Assembly: GCF_001913705.1 (NCBI RefSeq)
Contig: NZ_MKQD01000049.1
Location: 1-33,972, forward strand
Reading direction: 5' to 3'
DNA from: Thalassotalea sp. PP2-459
GTDB lineage: Bacteria > Pseudomonadota > Gammaproteobacteria > Enterobacterales > Alteromonadaceae
Length of the DNA: 33,972 bases
A model generated the notes under the pieces. That model saw only the letters and a program-made list of their open reading frames with translations, searched no databases and was not told the origin of the DNA. Of this stretch, positions 9,132 to 18,018 are shown in pieces (the first letter of the stretch is position 1; every line of letters starts with the position of its first letter). The translations under genes were made by a program, and so were the position numbers.

Positions 9132-9962
9132 TTAACGGGTTGCGGCTTTCATTTCACGAATAAAAGTGGCAAGTGTACTAAGCATCGCTTGTTCATCTTT
9201 TAGATGATTTTCAATGATTTTTACCACGGCTGAGCCGCTAATTGCACCTTTTGCTCCAGCTTTTAATGCATCTTTTACTTGCTCAGGTGAAGAAATTCCA
9301 AAACCAATAACGGCAGGAGCAGCATTATTTGCTTTTAACGTTGAAATAATATGCTCTGCTGGCGTGCTTGCTTTGGTTTCGGTGCCTGTGACTCCGGCTC
9401 TGCTAAGTACATAAGTATAACCTTTAGTATGCTCGGCAACTGCTGAAAGCTTATCGGCATCAGCATTTGGTGAAGCGATAAAAATAGGAGCAACACCCGC
9501 TTGTTCTGCGGCTTTGATAAACGGTTCACTTTCACGAAGAGGTAAATCGGCAATTAATACCGAATCAACGCCAGCTTTTGCTGCATCTTGGTAAAAAGTG
9601 GTAATACCACGAGCAAAGACTAAATTGCCGTATAATAAAAGCCCAATTGGAATATCGGGAGCATAAGCACGTACTTGCGCTAAAATATCAAAGCATATAT
9701 CAGTATTGACGCCAGAAGATAATGCGCGTTTACCCGCTTCTTGAATGGTGATGCCATCGGCACTCGGATCAGAAAAAGGAATACCGAGTTCTAGTGCATC
9801 TGCGCCAGCATCAATAAGTGTTTTGATTATTTTTAATGAAAGTTTGGGGTTAGGGTCACCAATGGTTACAAAAGGAATAAATGCGCCTTCTTTGGCTGTA
9901 GATAAGGCAGTAAAGCAATCATGATAACGTTTGCCTAATGTGTTTGTAGATAATTGTGTCAT
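9132..9962 (-). CDS. trpA: Tryptophan synthase alpha chain
   Basis: A 276-residue TIM-barrel subunit that cleaves indole-3-glycerol phosphate to indole and glyceraldehyde 3-phosphate and passes indole to Trp[16 protein letters not shown] holds the two catalytic acids, Glu58 and Asp69, equivalent to E. coli Glu49 and Asp60. Phosphate-binding [10 protein letters not shown] lies near 221-230 and GSAVVK near 243-248. Its start is two bases after the trpB stop codon, so the two subunits are translationally coupled. It is the last gene of the operon, followed by a strong terminator. Length and motifs are complete. Confidence 0.97.
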
Positions 9963-9964
9963 TG

Positions 9965-11170
9965 TTATTGCTCCTCGCCATTAAGCACTGTGTGTACATG
10001 AGCTAAGTCTTTGTCACCGCGGCCTGATAAATTCACTAAAAAGATAGTTTCTTCAGTGACGTCTTTTGCCATTTTCAGTGCCTGAGCTAATGCATGTGAC
10101 GACTCTAATGCGGGAATAATACCCTCGGAACGTGCCAGTGTTTGAAAGGCTTCTAGTGCTTCATCATCGTTGATCGGAACATACTGTGCTCGACCTGTTT
10201 CTTTTAGGAAGGCATGTTGCGGTCCAACGGCGGGATAATCTAACCCTGCTGAAACGGAATAAGATTCCTCTATTTGGCCAAATTTATCTTGCATAATATA
10301 GGTGTAATTACCGTGAAGCATACCTTTTGTACCTGCAGAAAGTGTTGCGCCATGTTCGTGTGTATCAACACCTTTACCGCCAGCTTCAACACCCACAATT
10401 TTCACGCTTTCATCATCAAGAAAGTCGTTAAACATGCCGATGGCATTTGAACCTCCGCCAACGCAGGCAATTACGTAATCCGGTAATCGACCTTCTTGCG
10501 TTAATAACTGTTGTTTTGCTTCTTCACCGATCATTTTTTGAAAATCACGCACAATGGTTGGAAAAGGGTGAGGGCCCGCTGCTGTGCCTAATAAATAATG
10601 CGCATCATCATAATTCGCTGACCAATCACGTAGCGCTTCATTTACTGCATCCTTTAACGTGCCGCCGCCAGCGGTAACAGGAATAACTTCTGCACCCATC
10701 AGTTTCATGCGAAAGACGTTAGGCTGTTGTCGTTCACAGTCTACTGCGCCCATATAAACACGACACTTTAATCCTAATAAGGAACAGGCAATTGCCGATG
10801 CAACACCATGTTGACCAGCACCTGTTTCAGCAATAATTTCTTTCTTGCCCATACGCTTTGCAAGTAGTGCTTGTCCCAATACTTGGTTAGTTTTATGAGC
10901 GCCACCATGCAGAAGATCTTCGCGTTTTAAATAAATTTTTGCTAATGGGTTAGGAGATACATTTCGCGTTAAGGTTAGGGGGGTTGGCCGACCAGCATAA
11001 TGTTCTAATAAGTCGTTAAACTCTTTAATAAACGCTTCATCTTGTTGCGATTCAATATAGGCTTGCTCTAGTTGCTCTAAAGCAGGCACAAGTAACTCAC
11101 CAACGTACATGCCGCCAAATTCGCCGAAATAGGCTGGAAGTGTTGGTTTTTTATCTGAATGTGATGTCAT
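9965..11170 (-). CDS. trpB: Tryptophan synthase beta chain
   Basis: A 401-residue PLP enzyme that condenses indole with serine to give tryptophan. The Schiff-base lysine lies in [12 protein letters not shown] (Lys93 from this start), PLP phosphate is held by the glycine-rich GGGSNAIG loop, and ETGAGQHG is the usual substrate loop containing the catalytic Glu. I place the start at ATG 11170, one base after the trpC/F stop (TAACATG on the coding strand), because it gives the normal TrpB N-terminus. An in-frame ATG at 11194 would add eight residues and overlap trpC/F. It acts as an alpha2beta2 complex with TrpA from the next gene. Confidence 0.97.
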
Positions 11171-11171
11171 G

Positions 11172-12563
11172 TTAATAATTCCGTATTTGTTCAAACGTAT
11201 GCGTTAGTTTTTCAGGGCACTTAATGCCGGGTGCTGACTCAACGCCAGAGTTAATATCTAAGCCAAATAAAGCCTGCTCTGTTTGTAAAGCAAGTGCTTG
11301 TTTAATGGTTTTGAGTCCAAGGCCACCAGCAATAAAACAGTGGGTAAATAATAAATTACTATCAGTGATTAATTGCCAATTAAATGCCTTTCCGCTCCCT
11401 GGCTCTGAGCCATCTAATATCACATGATCTACTTCTGGGTTACTTGTAGTGACTAAAGTAGATTCTATTTTAACCGCTTGCCAAATTTGACAGCTTTCCG
11501 GTAGTTTTTGTCGCAGTTCCTTAATGTAAAGCGCTGACTCATCTCCGTGAAGTTGAACAGCGTAAAGGTTAAGTGCTTTTGCACTTTCAACCACGATAGC
11601 TAAATCGCAATTAACAAAAACGCCTACGTAATTAAGAGAAGGTACATGTGTAACGATATCTTCTGCTTGTTGTTGCGTAATAAAACGTGCAGATTTTTCA
11701 GCAAAAATAAGCCCGCCATAAAGTGCGCCTGATTCAACTGCCAGCTTCGCATTTTTAGCTGAAGTTAAGCCACAGACTTTGTTCTCGCCATAAATAAGTT
11801 TACGACAAGCAAGATCAATATCTTGCTGCGCCATGACAGAACTCCCCACTAAGAAGCCATCAACGGCTGGTGCTAGCTCTCTAACTTGTGCATTTGTATA
11901 AATGCCTGACTCTGAAATAATAATACGATCATCAGGTATTTTTGGTGCAAATTCAAAAGTACGTGAGATATCAGTGGAAAGATCACGTAAATTACGATTA
12001 TTTATTCCAATAAGTTTGGCATCTAGTGCTATAGCTCGAGTTAGCTCATCTTCGGTGGATACTTCGGTTAAAATATTGAGGCTTAATTGTTCGGCGATCG
12101 TTGCTAATTGCTGATACTCATGATCGTCTAATACACTGAGCATTAATAAAATGGCATCAGCACCGTAGTAGCGTGCAAGATATACTTGGTATGGATCGAT
12201 AAAAAAGTCTTTATTAAGTACTGGGCAACTAACATGCTCGGTGACAATGTTTAAGTATTCATAGTTACCTTGAAAATATTGTTCGTCGGTTAACACTGAG
12301 ATGGCTGCGGCATAGTTATCATAGGTTTGACAAATTGACAGTACATCAAAATCTTCACGGATAAGCCCTTTTGAGGGTGAGGCTTTTTTACACTCTAAAA
12401 TAAACCCAGCACCATTATGACCTTTTGCTCTATCAAGCGCATCATACATATTTTTTGTTGAAGGGGTTAATGTTTCAACAAAGGTAGCTAATGGTTTTTG
12501 TTTTTTTAGTGCTTCGATTTCTATGCGTTTGTTAGCAACAATTTTTTCTAATACATTCGCCAT
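11172..12563 (-). CDS. trpCF: Bifunctional indole-3-glycerol-phosphate synthase / phosphoribosylanthranilate isomerase
   Basis: A 463-residue fusion, as in E. coli TrpC. Residues 1 to about 255 are the IGP synthase barrel: [13 protein letters not shown] carries catalytic Lys and substrate residues, then [22 protein letters not shown] and ISESGI. Residues about 258-463 are the isomerase: [19 protein letters not shown] with the catalytic Cys, FVN.....V, VQLHGDE, and C-terminal [17 protein letters not shown] with the catalytic Asp. It performs two consecutive steps, isomerisation of phosphoribosylanthranilate and ring closure to indole-3-glycerol phosphate. The start overlaps the trpD stop by one base (TAATG), and the stop is one base from trpB, indicating translational coupling. 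No domain is broken. Confidence 0.96.
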
Positions 12564-13579
12564 TATTGTGCACCTGCTTGATTTGATATAGCGACTAACT
12601 GTTCTAGCTTGGTCAAAGCTTCACCCGAGGAGAGCACTTGTTGTGCAACGGAAGCCGCTGCTTTTAAATCGAGAGCTTTACCATGCAAATATAGTAATGC
12701 GGCACAGTTAATGATCACTGCACTGTTGTGTGCATCTTCACCGTTACCAGATAAAATTTGTTTAATTATCTCTGCATTTTCCTGAGGCGTCCCACCTTTA
12801 ATATCATCTAATGAGTAGCGCGATAAGCCAAAGTCTTCCGGTGTGATGGTTTTATTGCTGAGTTGACCATTACTGATTTCACATACTTGAGTTTCACCGT
12901 GTAGGGCAATTTCATCTAAGCCACTACCGTGAACAACCCAGCCTTTTTCTACCCCTGTTAATTGCAGGCTTTTTGCCAGAGTTTGGATCAATTCAGGTGT
13001 ATATACCCCCATCAACATCACTGAGGGTGAAGCAGGGTTCACTAATGGCCCAAGAATGTTGAATAACGTTCTAATGCCCATCGCTTTGCGAACAGGGCCG
13101 GCATATTTAAACCCTGGGTGATACGCTGGCGCGTACAAAAAACATAAATTAGCTTGTTGCAAACATTGACTCGCGGTTTCTGGTGTCATAGATAAGTTAA
13201 CACCAAACGCTTCTAATAAATCTGCAGAGCCTGACATACTTGAAACACTACGGTTACCGTGTTTCGCCATTGGAATACCACATGCAGCTGCTAAAATAGC
13301 TGCAGTAGTTGAAATATTAATAGTATTTGCGCCATCACCACCCGTACCTACACAGTCGCTTACTGGCAATGTTTGTGTTGGAAATGAGGTGGCAAATTGT
13401 CGAACAGCTACCGCCGCTCCAGCAATTTCTTCAGGTGTTTCACCTTTAATTTTTAATGCCGTTAAGATAGACGCGAGTAATTCCGGCGCGATGTTGCCTT
13501 GCATTACGTCGCCAAAAAACGTTTCGGCTTGTGCTTGAGTGAGAGAGTTCCCCTCAACAAGTAATGATAAAACGTTCAT
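12563..13579 (-). CDS. trpD: Anthranilate phosphoribosyltransferase
   Basis: A 338-residue enzyme that transfers the phosphoribosyl group of PRPP to anthranilate. DCVGTGGDGANTINISTTAA contains the PRPP/Mg-binding GTGGDG loop, and KHGNRSVSSMSGSADLLEA the second signature. NILGPLVNP and the later GLDE segment are also typical. It is a free-standing TrpD, unlike the enteric trpG-trpD fusion. The start lies two bases after trpG, and the stop overlaps trpC/F by one base. Length is normal. Confidence 0.96.
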   Translation of the reverse strand: MNVLSLLVEGNSLTQAQAETFFGDVMQGNIAPELLASILTALKIKGETPEEIAGAAVAVRQFATSFPTQTLPVSDCVGTGGDGANTINISTTAAILAAACGIPMAKHGNRSVSSMSGSADLLEAFGVNLSMTPETASQCLQQANLCFLYAPAYHPGFKYAGPVRKAMGIRTLFNILGPLVNPASPSVMLMGVYTPELIQTLAKSLQLTGVEKGWVVHGSGLDEIALHGETQVCEISNGQLSNKTITPEDFGLSRYSLDDIKGGTPQENAEIIKQILSGNGEDAHNSAVIINCAALLYLHGKALDLKAAASVAQQVLSSGEALTKLEQLVAISNQAGAQ

Positions 13580-13581
13580 GA

Positions 13582-14202
13582 TTATTCCTTTAAAGTTTGT
13601 TCAGTTAGGCAACGAATACTTTGCTCTAGTAATGTGCTGCCATAAGTGGTTAATATAGATTCTGGATGAAACTGAAAGCCCATTACGCGGTCAGTTCGGT
13701 GAGTTATTGCCATAGGTAGTTGCTCGCCTGAGGCAGCTTCAACGGTTGCTGTTACCGATAATGTGCTTGGAATGTTCAATCCCACTAATGAATGATATCG
13801 GGCAACAGGTAAGGGTTGCTCTATGTTTTTAAATGCACCAGTACCACAATGGTTAACGTTTGCGGACTTACCATGAACAATTTCTGGTGCTCGACCTACT
13901 TTACCACCGTAGTGCTCTATTAACGCTTGATGACCTAAACAAATACCGAGTATGGGGTATTTTCCAGCTGTTTTTGCGATTAACGCCATTAAACAGCCAG
14001 CATGTTCTGGAGACCCTGGTCCAGGCGAAAGCACTAATAATACTTGGTCTGAGCAAGCTTCCATTTGTGCAAGAATAAAATCTGCTGATAACGTGTTGCG
14101 GTAAATAACAGGGCTGAAGCCTAGCACGTGAAATTCATCCACTAAGTTATAAGTAAATGAGTCAACGTTATCGAGCATAAAGACCTTTATTTTTTTGCTC
14201 AT
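13582..14202 (-). CDS. trpG: Anthranilate synthase component II (glutamine amidotransferase)
   Basis: A 206-residue class I glutamine amidotransferase that supplies ammonia to TrpE. The catalytic triad is visible: Cys88 in LGICLGHQAL, and His179 and Glu181 in FQFHPES. N-terminal LDNVDSFTYNL and LSPGPGSPEHAG form the oxyanion region. It is a separate gene rather than fused to trpD. The ATG overlaps the trpE stop in an ATGA tetranucleotide, giving coupling that fits the 1:1 complex. The sequence resembles the TrpG/PabA group and its operon position makes TrpG the right call, although such a protein can also serve aminodeoxychorismate synthase in some species. Confidence 0.95.
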   Translation of the reverse strand: MSKKIKVFMLDNVDSFTYNLVDEFHVLGFSPVIYRNTLSADFILAQMEACSDQVLLVLSPGPGSPEHAGCLMALIAKTAGKYPILGICLGHQALIEHYGGKVGRAPEIVHGKSANVNHCGTGAFKNIEQPLPVARYHSLVGLNIPSTLSVTATVEAASGEQLPMAITHRTDRVMGFQFHPESILTTYGSTLLEQSIRCLTEQTLKE

Positions 14203-15818
14203 GAGTCACTCTCCTGTGATGAGGAAACGTTTATTAACGTTGCTGCTTTTTGAATTGCGCTGATTACCGCTTGTGCTTTTTGTCGCGTTTCATCAGCTTC
14301 AGCTTGTGGATTTGAGTCATATACAACACCCGCACCCGCTTGAATATAGGCGATGTTATTTTTTACAAAAGCACTGCGAATAACAATACAGGTATCCATA
14401 TCTCCTTCGCCAGTAAGATAGCCTACAGCACCGCCATAACTGCCTCGTCGTTTACCTTCGTGCTGCCTGATCAACGAGGTTGCGCTTACTTTTGGAGCGC
14501 CAGATAATGTCCCCATATTCATACAAGCTTGATAGGCATGTAAGGCATCTAATTCATCGGAAAGCGTGCCGCATACACGAGAAACTAAGTGCATCACATG
14601 GGAGTATCTATCGGTTTTTAACAAATCTGCCACGTATCTAGTACCAGGTTTACACACGCGTGCAACATCATTTCGGGCTAAATCTACTAGCATAATATGT
14701 TCTGCTAATTCTTTTTGATCTTGTCTTAAGGCTAATTCAATGCGGCAATCAAGATCGGGTGAAAAGCTACCATCAGCATTAAAACCACGCGGCCTCGTGC
14801 CGGCAATAGGATAAATTTCAACTTGTCTATTATGTTGTTGATACTTAATGGCAGACTCTGGTGAGGCGCCAAACATGCAAAAATCATCGTCTTGTAAGTA
14901 AAACATGTAAGGGCTTGGGTTACTTTCTCGTAAACATAGGTAAGCATTGAAAGTGTCTGAGCAAGGCAAGCTAAAAGTACGAGATGGTACCACTTGAAAT
15001 ATATCACCAGCACAAATATGTTCTTTTAAGGTGCTTACGGTATGACAAAATTCTTCGTCACTAACATCAGTTAAAACAGTTAATGGTTCTACTGGTTTTA
15101 CGTGTGTTTGAGGCGCTGCGATATCTGATTCAACAAGTGCTTTGATATCAGACAAACGACGAGCAATTTCAAAGTGACACTTTTGCTGATCTGGACCAGA
15201 GAAAACATTACCAATAACTTCACTAGCGCGTCTTTCATGATCGATAACCACGAGAGTTTCTGCAAGATAAAACACAAAATCAGGGCAGGTGTTTTCACCG
15301 CCTTCAACAACCGGTAATGTTTCTGACATTGTGATCATATCAAAGGCAAATGCCCCTGCTAAAAATATGGCAAAAGGGTGATGGTTTTTATTGTCAAAGC
15401 GTTTAAATTGTCTTAATGCTTGAAAGGCGTTATCGGCTAACAAACGAGATTTTTCATCAAGTTGTTGATCAACCTCGGGAAAGGTTGCTTTAACTACACC
15501 ATTTTCTTCTGTTAATGATGCTTGCTTAGCCAAGTTTTCTTTAGCAAAGGCAATTGCAGCTGCGCCATTAAGGGTCAACGGAGTAAAAGTCACGGTAGTG
15601 TTGTTGCAAACAATTTTTACTGCTGCATCGATTAATAGTAAACTTTTTAATTGGTGTTTTTTGTCTATTTCTGCGGATTCTAATAATAAGTTGTTCTTTT
15701 TGTCACCACATAGTTTCTTAAAAAGCGTTAATGGATCAGGTTGATACCTGGCTTTACCTGACAACGTTGTTACGTAGCCGTAGGTATCATCATTGTGTTG
15801 AGTGAATAAGGCATTCAT
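14199..15818 (-). CDS. trpE: Anthranilate synthase component I
   Basis: A 539-residue chorismate-utilising enzyme that makes anthranilate with TrpG. The N-terminal domain has the LLLES motif (44-48) associated with tryptophan feedback binding, so allosteric inhibition is expected. The C-terminal catalytic domain has IFQVVPSRTF, the PYMFYL segment, GASPES, IAGTRPRG, HIMLVDLARNDV and GTLSGAPKV. It is slightly longer than E. coli TrpE. The start overlaps the stop of the upstream DAHP synthase gene as ATGA, and its stop overlaps trpG the same way. All catalytic blocks are intact. An internal minus-strand frame at 14732-15013 is a shadow. Confidence 0.96.
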   Translation of the reverse strand: MNALFTQHNDDTYGYVTTLSGKARYQPDPLTLFKKLCGDKKNNLLLESAEIDKKHQLKSLLLIDAAVKIVCNNTTVTFTPLTLNGAAAIAFAKENLAKQASLTEENGVVKATFPEVDQQLDEKSRLLADNAFQALRQFKRFDNKNHHPFAIFLAGAFAFDMITMSETLPVVEGGENTCPDFVFYLAETLVVIDHERRASEVIGNVFSGPDQQKCHFEIARRLSDIKALVESDIAAPQTHVKPVEPLTVLTDVSDEEFCHTVSTLKEHICAGDIFQVVPSRTFSLPCSDTFNAYLCLRESNPSPYMFYLQDDDFCMFGASPESAIKYQQHNRQVEIYPIAGTRPRGFNADGSFSPDLDCRIELALRQDQKELAEHIMLVDLARNDVARVCKPGTRYVADLLKTDRYSHVMHLVSRVCGTLSDELDALHAYQACMNMGTLSGAPKVSATSLIRQHEGKRRGSYGGAVGYLTGEGDMDTCIVIRSAFVKNNIAYIQAGAGVVYDSNPQAEADETRQKAQAVISAIQKAATLINVSSSQESDS

Positions 15819-16831
15819 ATCGATTTACCTGCAGCTTTAATGAATGGTTTGATATCAGCCATTAAAGTGGCAAAATCGTCAGCGTTAAGTGCTTGGTGCC
15901 CGTCAGATAAGGCTTCTGTTGGCTTTAAATGCGTTTCAACAATAATACCGTCCGCACCCACTGCCACAGCTGCTCGAGAAAGTGGATTGATCAACGATTT
16001 AACACCCGTTCCATGAGAAGGATCAACCAATACCGGTAAATGAGATTTTTCTTTTAAATAGGCGACTGCATTCAGATCCAATGTATTTCGTGTTGCTGTT
16101 TCGAAGGTACGTATGCCACGTTCACATAAAATGACATTGGGGTTGCCGGCATTAATGATGTACTCAGCAGCTAATAAAAGTTCTTCTATGGTCGCGCTCA
16201 TGCCACGCTTTAACAGCACAGCTTTATCAGAGTGTTTGCCTACGGCTTCCAGTAAACGAAAATTTTGCATATTTCGCGCGCCAATTTGATAACAATCAAT
16301 GTAATCGTGCATTAATTTGGCATCATTTGGGTCGATGATCTCAGAGACAATATTTAACTGATATTTTTCGCGGGCAGCTTTTAAAAGTTTCAGGCCATCA
16401 AGACCTAGACCTTGAAAAGAGTATGGGCTTGTGCGAGGTTTAAACGCGCCGCCGCGTAATAAAGTAATGCCTTGTTTTGATATCATCTCACTGACACCAA
16501 ACAGTTGCTCTTCGCTTTCAACTGAACAAGGGCCTGCAATCACTGTGAATGCTCCTCCACCGACTTTAATACCACCAATGGATACGATTGAGTCATGAGA
16601 TTGTAACTCTCGGCTAACGAGTTTATATGGGCTTAAAACGGGTTTTATTTCGTCTACCATTGGATACGCATCTAAATGAAGTTGCGCTAATACGCGTTCA
16701 TCACCTAATGCTCCTAGGACCGTTCGCTCAATACCCGGCATATATAGTGGTTTGAGCCCAAGGCTTGATATTTTTGTTAATATTTCATTCGCATCTTTTT
16801 CTGATGCTTGGGGTTTTAATACAATAATCAT
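15815..16831 (-). CDS. aroF: 3-deoxy-7-phosphoheptulonate (DAHP) synthase, type I-beta
   Basis: A 338-residue enzyme that condenses phosphoenolpyruvate and erythrose 4-phosphate, the first step of the shikimate pathway. The first 65 or so residues (MIIVLKPQAS onward) form the ferredoxin-like regulatory domain seen in Thermotoga-type DAHP synthases. The barrel follows with VIAGPCSVES at 97-106, GGAFKPRTSPYSFQGLG, LLKRGMSAT, ILCERGIRTFE and VDPSHGTG. This is the I-beta/KDO8P-synthase-like class, not the E. coli AroG/F/H I-alpha class. The start has an AGGAA Shine-Dalgarno 6 bases away. It is the first structural gene after the trp attenuator and overlaps trpE by four bases. The symbol aroF is by convention for this class; family assignment is strong. 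Confidence 0.92.
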   Translation of the reverse strand: MIIVLKPQASEKDANEILTKISSLGLKPLYMPGIERTVLGALGDERVLAQLHLDAYPMVDEIKPVLSPYKLVSRELQSHDSIVSIGGIKVGGGAFTVIAGPCSVESEEQLFGVSEMISKQGITLLRGGAFKPRTSPYSFQGLGLDGLKLLKAAREKYQLNIVSEIIDPNDAKLMHDYIDCYQIGARNMQNFRLLEAVGKHSDKAVLLKRGMSATIEELLLAAEYIINAGNPNVILCERGIRTFETATRNTLDLNAVAYLKEKSHLPVLVDPSHGTGVKSLINPLSRAAVAVGADGIIVETHLKPTEALSDGHQALNADDFATLMADIKPFIKAAGKSI

Positions 16832-16873
16832 GGTTATTCCTAATTTATCTGTTTATGTGTCATCCGGCGTAAA

Positions 16874-16886
16874 TTGGCTGAAGCCA
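16874..16886. promoter_or_regulatory. Short palindrome in the aroF 5' region
   Basis: TTGGCTGAAGCCA forms an inverted repeat (TGGCT-GA-AGCCA). It resembles the longer palindrome at 17085-17101 (TTGGCT...AGCCAA). The two could be binding sites for one regulator, but I cannot name a protein, and the match is short. Confidence 0.3.
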
Positions 16887-16940
16887 CCAGATAAACCAGC
16901 TTTTTACTTTTGTAGTTAACATGGTTTTCTCATTAAAAAG

Positions 16941-16978
16941 TTAAAATAAAAAACCCGCGTAGTAGCACTATGCGGGTT
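16941..16978 (-). terminator. trp attenuator terminator (segments 3:4)
   Basis: On the minus strand, AACCCGCATAG (16978-16968) pairs with CTACGCGGGTT (16962-16952) through a TGCTA loop with one mismatch. The strand then runs TTTTATTTTAA. Segment 3 (AACCCG) can instead pair with segment 2 (TGGGTTGTG, 17019-17011), so terminator and antiterminator exclude each other. It lies 42 bases after the leader-peptide stop and 109 bases before aroF. Confidence 0.92.
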
Positions 16979-17010
16979 ATCTTGAATTTTTAGCAAATAC
17001 AGCAAACGTT

Positions 17011-17034
17011 CACAACCCACTATGTTGAGTTATG
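17011..17034 (-). promoter_or_regulatory. trp leader pause hairpin (segments 1:2)
   Basis: On the minus strand, CATAACTCA (17034-17026) pairs over all nine positions with TGGGTTGTG (17019-17011), counting G-U pairs, with an ACATAG loop. Segment 1 lies immediately after the three Trp codons, inside the leader frame, as expected if a ribosome stalled at Trp codons masks it. Segment 2 also complements segment 3 of the terminator. Confidence 0.85.
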
Positions 17035-17076
17035 CCACCACCAAAGGTTCGTTGTTAAAGGTTTTGTTGTTTTCAT
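17020..17076 (-). CDS. trpL: trp operon leader peptide
   Basis: ATG 17076 to TAG 17022-17020 encodes MKTTKPLTTNLWWWHNST, 18 residues with three consecutive Trp codons (TGG TGG TGG). It is followed by a hairpin series ending in a U-tract terminator, then the DAHP synthase and trp genes. This is the architecture of ribosome-mediated attenuation: when charged tRNA-Trp is scarce, the ribosome stalls on the Trp codons, frees segment 2 to pair with segment 3, and the terminator does not form. The Shine-Dalgarno is only a purine tract (AAAAAAAG). The reading is convincing despite the short length, because Trp codons, spacing and RNA folds all agree. Confidence 0.93.
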   Translation of the reverse strand: MKTTKPLTTNLWWWHNST

Positions 17077-17084
17077 CTTTTTTT

Positions 17085-17101
17085 ATTGGCTAATAGCCAA
17101 T
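17085..17101. promoter_or_regulatory. 17-bp perfect palindrome upstream of trpL
   Basis: ATTGGCTAATAGCCAAT is a perfect inverted repeat nine bases upstream of the trpL start. It lies between the likely trp promoter and the leader peptide and also upstream of the divergent rnm gene. It could be an operator for one or both, or a hairpin in the leader RNA. It does not resemble the E. coli TrpR operator (no ACTAGT core) or the TyrR box. Confidence 0.55.
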
Positions 17102-17135
17102 TCCCATTTACAATGCGTCTGCCTAAATCCCCTAT

Positions 17136-17164
17136 AGAAAACCTTATTATGACCTTGATGTCAA
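17136..17164 (-). promoter_or_regulatory. Candidate trp operon promoter
   Basis: On the minus strand a perfect TTGACA (17164-17159) is followed at 17-base spacing by TTTTCT (17141-17136), a weak -10. TATAGG lies nearby at a less favourable 22-base spacing. It would give a leader of about 55 bases before trpL and overlaps the 5' end of the divergent rnm gene. Confidence 0.35.
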
Positions 17165-18018
17165 CCGAAAATTTAGCGAGCTTTTCCACGAAACGCGTTG
17201 ACTTACACAGTCATACTACATGTTCTGACGGCGGTCTTTCGCCTACAGAGCTGATAGACAGAGCCGTTAACTTTCAAATTGATGTGTTAGCTATCACCGA
17301 TCATGATACCGTAGCAGCGCTTGATATCGCTAAAGGTTATATTCAAGAAAAAAATTATCCATTAACAATCATTGATGGCATTGAAATATCAACTCGGTGG
17401 CATAATTTTGAAATTCATATTGTTGGGTTAAATATTCAAGCAGATCACCCTGCATTAGTGTCATTAATTCACTCACAGCAGCAAGCAAGAGAGTTACGTG
17501 CGACACTCATTGGTGAAAAACTCGCTAAATGCGGGTTTGATCATGTATATCAACAGGCAAAAGCACTCGCAGGTAAAGGGTCTATTACTCGTGCACACTT
17601 TGCAAAAGTGTTATTAAATCAAGGCCATATCAACCATATGCAAGCTGCATTTGATAAATATTTAGGCAAAGGTAAACGGGCATATGTTAAACCTCAGTGG
17701 TGTGATATTGAAAACGCAGTTGAGGCCATTCATCTAGCTGGGGGCAGCGCAGTAATCGCCCATCCTATTCGCTATGACATGACAACGAAATGGCTTCGGC
17801 GATTAGTGGTAGATTTTAAATCGTGTGGTGGTGACGGTTTAGAAATAGTTTTACCTCAAATGAATAACGAACAACGTAAATTAATGCTAAGCTTTTGTTT
17901 GGAGTATGATTTACTTTCATCGTTGGGATCAGACTTTCATTATCCAACTAAATGGGCTGATCTTGGTAAAAATTTAGTGCTTCCAGAACAAGCAATGCCG
18001 ATTTGGCAAGCTTGGTAA
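17158..18018 (+). CDS. rnm: PHP-domain 5'-3' exoribonuclease (RNase AM type)
   Basis: A 286-residue protein of the PHP phosphoesterase fold, with metal-binding motifs DLHSHTTCSDG, ITDHDT, GIEIS, VIAHPIRY and the final GSDFHYP. It corresponds to E. coli YciV (RNase AM, previously trpH), which trims 5' ends of small RNA fragments including rRNA. In E. coli too it lies divergent from the trp operon and next to yciO, supporting the assignment. The frame is open to TTG 17086, but that would begin within the palindrome upstream of trpL. ATG 17158 (MSTENLAS) gives the normal family N-terminus, with ATG 17149 and 17113 as alternatives, none with a strong Shine-Dalgarno. The start is therefore uncertain, the identity much less so. 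Confidence 0.88.
   Translation: MSTENLASFSTKRVDLHSHTTCSDGGLSPTELIDRAVNFQIDVLAITDHDTVAALDIAKGYIQEKNYPLTIIDGIEISTRWHNFEIHIVGLNIQADHPALVSLIHSQQQARELRATLIGEKLAKCGFDHVYQQAKALAGKGSITRAHFAKVLLNQGHINHMQAAFDKYLGKGKRAYVKPQWCDIENAVEAIHLAGGSAVIAHPIRYDMTTKWLRRLVVDFKSCGGDGLEIVLPQMNNEQRKLMLSFCLEYDLLSSLGSDFHYPTKWADLGKNLVLPEQAMPIWQAW

Follow-up and report, generated by a model that had tools for sequence, protein, structure and literature searches.

A second conserved Trp-codon leader ORF behind the trp attenuator of Thalassotalea sp. PP2-459, a possible second control of the operon

Described leader peptides and how the locus compares

The classical trpL attenuator, catalogued in Rfam as RF00513 (Trp_leader), combines a run of Trp codons with 1:2, 2:3 and 3:4 pairings and a U-tract, and is followed by trp genes. 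All these features are present in the leader region described here, which lies in a stretch of 33,972 nucleotides from Thalassotalea sp. PP2-459 (contig NZ_MKQD01000049.1; family Alteromonadaceae and order Enterobacterales in GTDB), hereafter the window. The window leader differs in having a second Trp-codon upstream ORF (uORF2) and in having aroG, encoding a type I-beta DAHP synthase, as the first gene. It also differs in score, since it aligns end to end with RF00513 at 33 bits (E 4.7e-5) and does not reach the gathering score of 41, which is a database cut-off and not a mechanistic feature; at the gathering threshold, Rfam gives no match in the leader region. Gamma-proteobacterial attenuators are reportedly the subject of work by Panina (2001), Xie (2003), Vitreschak (2004) and Merino (2008).

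TnaC is a Trp-sensing arrest peptide with a UGA stop codon, in which L-Trp is captured by means of W12 and RF2 is blocked; W12 is the 13th residue from the end and is followed by F13 (PMC8429421, PMC10941005). uORF2 is likewise a short upstream ORF with a WF pair near an RF2-only UGA, upstream of a Trp-metabolism operon, its W being the 12th residue from the end and its WF pair thus one residue nearer to the end than in TnaC. In contrast, of the residues W12, D16, I19 and P24 of TnaC, uORF2 has no D and no terminal P. It ends in YAG and follows an attenuator with an intrinsic terminator. Furthermore, TnaC precedes the catabolic tna genes, whereas uORF2 precedes the biosynthetic aroG or trpE in all 97 readable loci. 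Because D16 and P24 have no counterpart, uORF2 is TnaC-like and is not a member of TnaC. The terminal YAG also recalls the RAG motif of SecM, of which the Gly occupies the P-site during the stall (PMC10951299), and this is a resemblance only.

Leaders with two short ORFs have been described elsewhere. The tandem attenuators of Salmonella mgtCBR respond to ATP and proline (PMC3641672), whereas here Trp is abundant in both leader ORFs and no terminator follows the second. Upstream of ermB, ErmBL is followed by ErmBL2, a second and previously unreported leader peptide behind the classical one; the stall is induced by erythromycin and has no link to tryptophan. The peTrpL peptide of Sinorhizobium meliloti is also a conserved product of a trp leader, with a function in trans at a multidrug-resistance mRNA (PMC7298713), whereas for uORF2 the place and the stop context are conserved as well. 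The uORF2 peptide strings have no match in the literature searched, and the terms "tandem attenuators" and "tryptophan" together retrieve only the Salmonella Mg2+ genes. Among the matches listed, none describes a second leader in this operon; subscription literature is mostly outside the scope of this search, and absence from print is unproven.

The trp attenuator and its operon

From the letters of the window alone, a sequence-only reading had proposed a complete Trp attenuator at 16941-17076, made up of an 18-residue leader with three Trp codons in a row, a 1:2 hairpin of nine pairs, an antiterminator formed by segments 2 and 3, and a terminator formed by segments 3 and 4 with a U-tract. All the parts are present at these positions on the minus strand (Table 1). 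When evaluated as explicit structures, the 1:2, 2:3 and 3:4 pairings form at -9.5, -7.5 and -14.0 kcal/mol, respectively. When no pairing is imposed, the 136 nt as a whole fold into a longer structure resembling 2:3 (-32 kcal/mol, z -1.89), an energy matched by 9 of 200 shuffles of the region. With consecutive Trp codons in its leader, 1:2 and 3:4 pairings that are mutually exclusive with 2:3, and a U-tract, the attenuator at 17076-16941 is real, of the textbook kind and, as an attenuator, ordinary.

Table 1. Coordinates of leader features and operon genes in the window
Feature	Position	Strand	Details
Leader ORF 1 (trpL-like)	17020..17076	-	MKTTKPLTTNLWWWHNST, then stop; 18 residues, three consecutive TGG codons
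Attenuator segment 1	17026..17034	-	CATAACTCA; 17034-17026 forms nine pairs with 17019-17011 of segment 2
Attenuator segment 2	17011..17020	-	GTGGGTTGTG; partner segment 1 (via 17019-17011) or segment 3 (via 17020-17014)
Attenuator segment 3	16972..16978	-	AACCCGC; 16978-16972 forms seven pairs with 17020-17014 of segment 2, or pairs with segment 4
Attenuator segment 4, terminator arm	16952..16958	-	GCGGGTT; 16958-16952 forms seven pairs, plus four inner pairs, with 16978-16972 of segment 3; T-run after
U-tract, intrinsic terminator	16941..16951	-	read from sequence
uORF2, second leader ORF	16860..16922	-	MLTTKVKSWFIWWLQPIYAG, then stop; ATG...TGA, 20 residues, between terminator and aroG
Conserved C-terminal 12 codons of uORF2	16863..16898	-	WF[ILM]WWL[QL]P[IL]YAG
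Four-base stop signal of uORF2	16859..16862	-	UGAC
Spacer, uORF2 stop to aroG start	16832..16859	-	28 nt; AGGA at 16841-16838
aroG	15815..16831	-	type I-beta DAHP synthase, N-terminal ferredoxin-like domain; curated profiles
trpE	14199..15818	-	TIGR00565
trpG	13582..14202	-	TIGR00566
trpD	12563..13579	-	TIGR01245
trpCF fusion	11172..12563	-	NF006945
trpB	9965..11194	-	TIGR00263
trpA	9132..9962	-	TIGR00262

A scan of 16800-17300 for sigma-70 and terminator consensus sequences reported nothing on the minus strand, and carries little weight because the terminator of the attenuator itself escaped it. At 17158-17164 the minus strand reads TTGACA, which may be the -35 box of the trp promoter; the consensus scan reported no promoter there. 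The hexamer overlaps a likely start codon (ATGTCAACC) of a divergent ORF (17086-18018) that resembles a PHP-domain gene.

A Trp-codon leader, a GC hairpin and a T-run lie upstream of uORF2 in all 98 loci that carry it, the window included. Pair conservation was assessed on 84 distinct sequences drawn from 88 of these 98 loci. Eight of the nine 1:2 pairs, all but one of the seven 2:3 pairs and, in the 3:4 helix, the outer seven are each kept in at least 80 of the 84. Weaker are the ninth 1:2 pair (33 of 84) and the outermost 2:3 pair (56 of 83), which count against full conservation, and the inner 3:4 pairs show none among the 84 sequences. Two-sided changes are few, with A-U replaced by G-C in the 3:4 helix of six sequences and G-C by A-U in the 2:3 helix of three. 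Because segment 1 also encodes HNS, its conservation is not purely structural. The results that the sequence-only reading named as refuting it did not appear in the window's family: upstream of trpE in 34 further genera, a Trp-codon leader is found in 34 of 34 loci. Outside the family, 25 trpE loci were readable, L229 being cut; 18 of them carry such a leader and seven carry none.

The first controlled gene is indeed, as had been proposed, a type I-beta DAHP synthase. It matches NF006421 at 463.8 bits (cut-off 335) and TIGR01361 at 372.2 (cut-off 267.75), with the domains PF00793 and PF18152. The claim that charged tRNA-Trp would set entry into the shikimate pathway was overstated, since the genome encodes three further DAHP synthases, of type I-alpha and all over the TIGR00034 cut-off. 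The window leader would therefore set a Trp-linked share of shikimate entry and not entry itself. No leader with a Trp run was seen within 400 nt before these three genes. Nor is aroG the more frequent first gene, as aroG comes next in 27 and trpE in 70 of the 98 two-leader genomes.

Among named genomes, 12 of 40 aroG loci are 84-98% identical to that of the window and belong to Thalassotalea, Colwellia, Thalassomonas and a Colwelliaceae MAG, and the remaining 28, mostly from Planctomycetota, are 46-54% identical. An aroG at least 57% identical occurs in 23 of 118 relatives (the window's genome counted), 12 in the same family and 11 in other families of the order. TrpR exceeded the cut-off in 16 of the 118 relatives. 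None of these belonged to the 71 genomes searched in the window's family, which gave three weaker matches under the cut-off; the control of this search also matched in Bacillus subtilis. Control of the window operon by TrpR is unsupported, given that no TrpR exceeds the cut-off in those 71 genomes.

A second leader ORF conserved up to its stop signal

The sequence-only reading had the anatomy of the attenuator right, but it did not cover the whole leader and missed uORF2. The motif was searched as WFxWWLxPIYAGG, with the stop codon left out and two mismatches allowed, in 395 genomes of the window's family sampled from a larger group. It was found in 98 genomes from 18 of 52 genera, with one copy per genome, and the reversed control pattern gave no match in the same 395 genomes. 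When 394 genomes of the order were searched with a similar pattern including a stop, 10 matched, every one in the window's family; by manual count, the 359 genomes from other families have no match. NCBIfam gives no match for the uORF2 peptide and Pfam none for three of its variants.

By manual count, misses within the 18 genera are confined to genus g52, in which eight of 15 genomes have no match, and to one genome of another genus (g8), the latter 66% complete and also without a trpE match. By eye, the eight motif-less g52 genomes (L238-L245) retain the WWW leader and its hairpin. One of them, L245, has a WFIWW remnant that reads on without the YAG stop, and g52 forms a natural loss series.

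Selection on the peptide is strong. Within the last 12 codons, none of the 98 loci departs from the three W or from the L, P, Y, A and G, and F is kept in 97, despite variation at third codon positions; the search pattern restricts motif variation in the sample, which matters little because outside g52 it missed one genome in those genera. Pairwise differences over these codons, calculated on 67 distinct sequences, amount to 0.65 at synonymous (pS) and 0.047 at nonsynonymous sites (pN), while pN reaches 0.30 in the four codons directly before the motif. Synonymous sites are near saturation and the last 12 residues hardly change.

Conservation extends to the stop, which was absent from the search pattern: TGA is used in 93 of the 98 loci, TAA in four and TAG in one, and the following base is C in 96. 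Beyond this base, the commonest nucleotide at each of ten positions is found in at most 59 of 98 loci, so that conservation falls off with the release-factor signal, at its fourth base. As background, 219 long ORFs from five genomes have TGA in 20 cases (9%), TGAC in two, and C after any stop in 48. The first leaders of the same 98 loci end in TGA only once. TGAC is present in all or most members of 15 of the 18 genera, and binomial statistics, which ignore relatedness, serve as a guide only. Stop-codon readthrough was considered as the function of uORF2 and rejected: a stop occurs within 12 codons downstream in 64 of 98 loci in frame 0 and in 69 and 83 in the other two frames, frame 0 being unenriched.

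uORF2 also has a fixed place before the first gene. The following gene is trpE in 70 loci and aroG in 27, and is unread at a contig end in one. The idea that uORF2 is specific to aroG is therefore rejected, and the two-leader arrangement is independent of DAHP synthase. With first-gene starts assigned by script, 84 of 97 loci have 26-40 nt between the end of uORF2 and the next start, and the median is 34. A few spacers are long, up to 145 nt, including three before aroG of 74-145 nt (L011, L013 and L124), and an inverted repeat is visible by eye in those of L011 and L013. From the uORF2 start to the next gene, no terminator-like site was found in 97 loci, while the same finder placed one upstream in 98 of 98. 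A terminator after the second leader ORF, by which tandem attenuators are recognized, is thus absent at uORF2 in the window. A conserved helix between TTTATCTG in uORF2 and CAGATAAA in the aroG ribosome-binding region was rejected by eye, the spacer being different in other genera.

Two codons within the motif stand out. At 16886-16875 in the window and at the corresponding codons elsewhere, 97 of 98 loci encode the Leu of WWL by CTN, and in 91 the following codon has G at its third position, in contrast with the AT-rich codon usage. Together, the two codons would close a small GGC-NNNN-GCC hairpin by a C-G pair, which becomes U-A in one locus and is broken in six.

Readings of the second leader

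The conservation of uORF2 to its stop suggests that the operon is controlled at a second point. Confidence stands only slightly above even in a two-stage leader, in which the classical attenuator would be followed by a nascent-peptide brake acting in cis at termination and stronger when Trp is plentiful. In the first stage, scarce charged tRNA-Trp would hold the ribosome at WWW, leaving segment 2 free to pair with segment 3, and transcription would continue. In the second, uORF2 would be translated on the read-through transcript, and its nascent C-terminus (WFxWWLxPxYAG) and the RF2-specific UGAC, reportedly the weakest UGA context in E. coli, would act jointly to make peptide release slow, probably conditionally. 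Parked at the stop, which lies upstream of the first gene by about 34 nt (28 nt in the window), the ribosome would set the translation of this gene or the extent of continued transcription. When Trp is short, the brake would presumably be weaker because ribosomes would pause before they reach the stop, on the Trp codons of uORF2.

Placing the brake at termination follows from what the release factor sees, as the RF2-only stop and its fourth base are fixed and conservation is much weaker thereafter. The fourth base of a stop signal is described to affect termination, and trp attenuation in E. coli changes with the occupancy of stop codons on leader peptides (PMC5373646). TnaC is the precedent for an arrest at this stage, and the lack of a TrpR over the cut-off in the 71 genomes of the family also counts in favour. 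Several observations count against the two-stage reading. Five of the 98 loci have TAA or TAG, eight of 15 g52 genomes have the first leader without the motif, D16 and P24 of TnaC have no equivalent, and a biosynthetic operon needs a sign opposite to that of tna. In addition, from the size of the ribosome footprint, a ribosome at the UGA with a spacing of 34 nt adjoins the initiation site rather than clearly covering it, which makes simple occlusion marginal.

Taken alone, the Trp codons would fit a tRNA sensor and the conservation of the peptide would fit a trans-acting product. The former corresponds to an inert peptide encoded by the remnant of a second full attenuator, which would sense charged tRNA-Trp by pausing at its three Trp codons and so alter the translation or stability of the first gene. 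Tandem Trp leaders with two terminators do occur, before aroG in seven of ten readable loci of other families (with L022 as an imperfect eighth) and before trpE in L189 and L197. However, such a remnant leaves the fixed L, P, Y, A and G, the UGA and its fourth base unexplained, and the missing terminator after uORF2 and the lack of sequence conservation in the spacer also speak against it; this reading is unlikely. A small peptide acting in trans, as peTrpL does in Sinorhizobium, would account for the strong purifying selection and has a precedent in a Trp leader peptide (PMC7298713), but gives no reason for UGA, for C at the fourth base or for a place 26-40 nt before the first gene, and is considered improbable.

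Termination followed by reinitiation draws on the last Gly codon of uORF2 (16865-16860 in the window), which is GGA in 67 of 98 loci against roughly 8-15% of background Gly codons. GGA with TGA (GGATGA) puts an ATG across the stop, at which ribosomes could restart, there or at the first gene, and Korolev et al. (2016) propose that ribosomes reinitiate from leader genes (PMC4833913). The median spacing of 34 nt nevertheless exceeds the 10-13 bp peak given for Proteobacteria in the same paper, and in 31 loci the last codon is GGT or GGC, with no ATG overlap and UGAC in all 31; little likelihood is left for this explanation. That a single classical attenuator does everything and uORF2 is incidental, as the sequence-only reading would imply if it were complete, agrees with the intact attenuator and with the eight g52 genomes without the motif, but hardly with the retention of uORF2 across 18 genera at near-saturated synonymous sites, and appears very improbable. 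The observation made in that reading is confirmed and its interpretation partly supported.

Within the reading of uORF2 as a brake at termination, a bolder version is tentative and on the unlikely side: uORF2 may represent a new class of metabolite-sensing arrest peptide, in which free Trp and WFxWWLxPxYAG would block RF2 at UGAC and shut the trp operon. If so, attenuation and arrest would let one leader respond to charged tRNA-Trp and to free tryptophan, respectively. In either version, a conserved peptide behind the classical leader, under selection up to the fourth base of its stop signal, would introduce a checkpoint at translation termination into the textbook circuit of trp attenuation and would be a natural second tryptophan-linked peptide beside TnaC, in a family of which 71 genomes gave no TrpR over the cut-off.

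Other second leaders are visible in relatives. Before aroG in other families, a script identified two Trp-codon leaders with two terminators in L015, L016, L017, L019, L020, L023 and L024; the second leader of L024 extends through its terminator when the first ATG is taken as the start. Among the ten readable loci, an imperfect hairpin accompanies a second uORF in L022, and L014 and L018 have one terminator each, L021 being cut by a contig end. Because tandem attenuators exist elsewhere, the terminator-less uORF2 may have descended from a second attenuator. Before trpE, tandem leaders with terminators occur in L189, L197 and perhaps L192, representing two or three genera of the window's family. 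Another kind of short second uORF, often with WRW or RWQ, follows the attenuator terminator upstream of trpE in L218, L219, L225, L234, L199, L201 and L210, and is of WRW type in L218 and L219 by script and in L225, L234 and L199 by eye.
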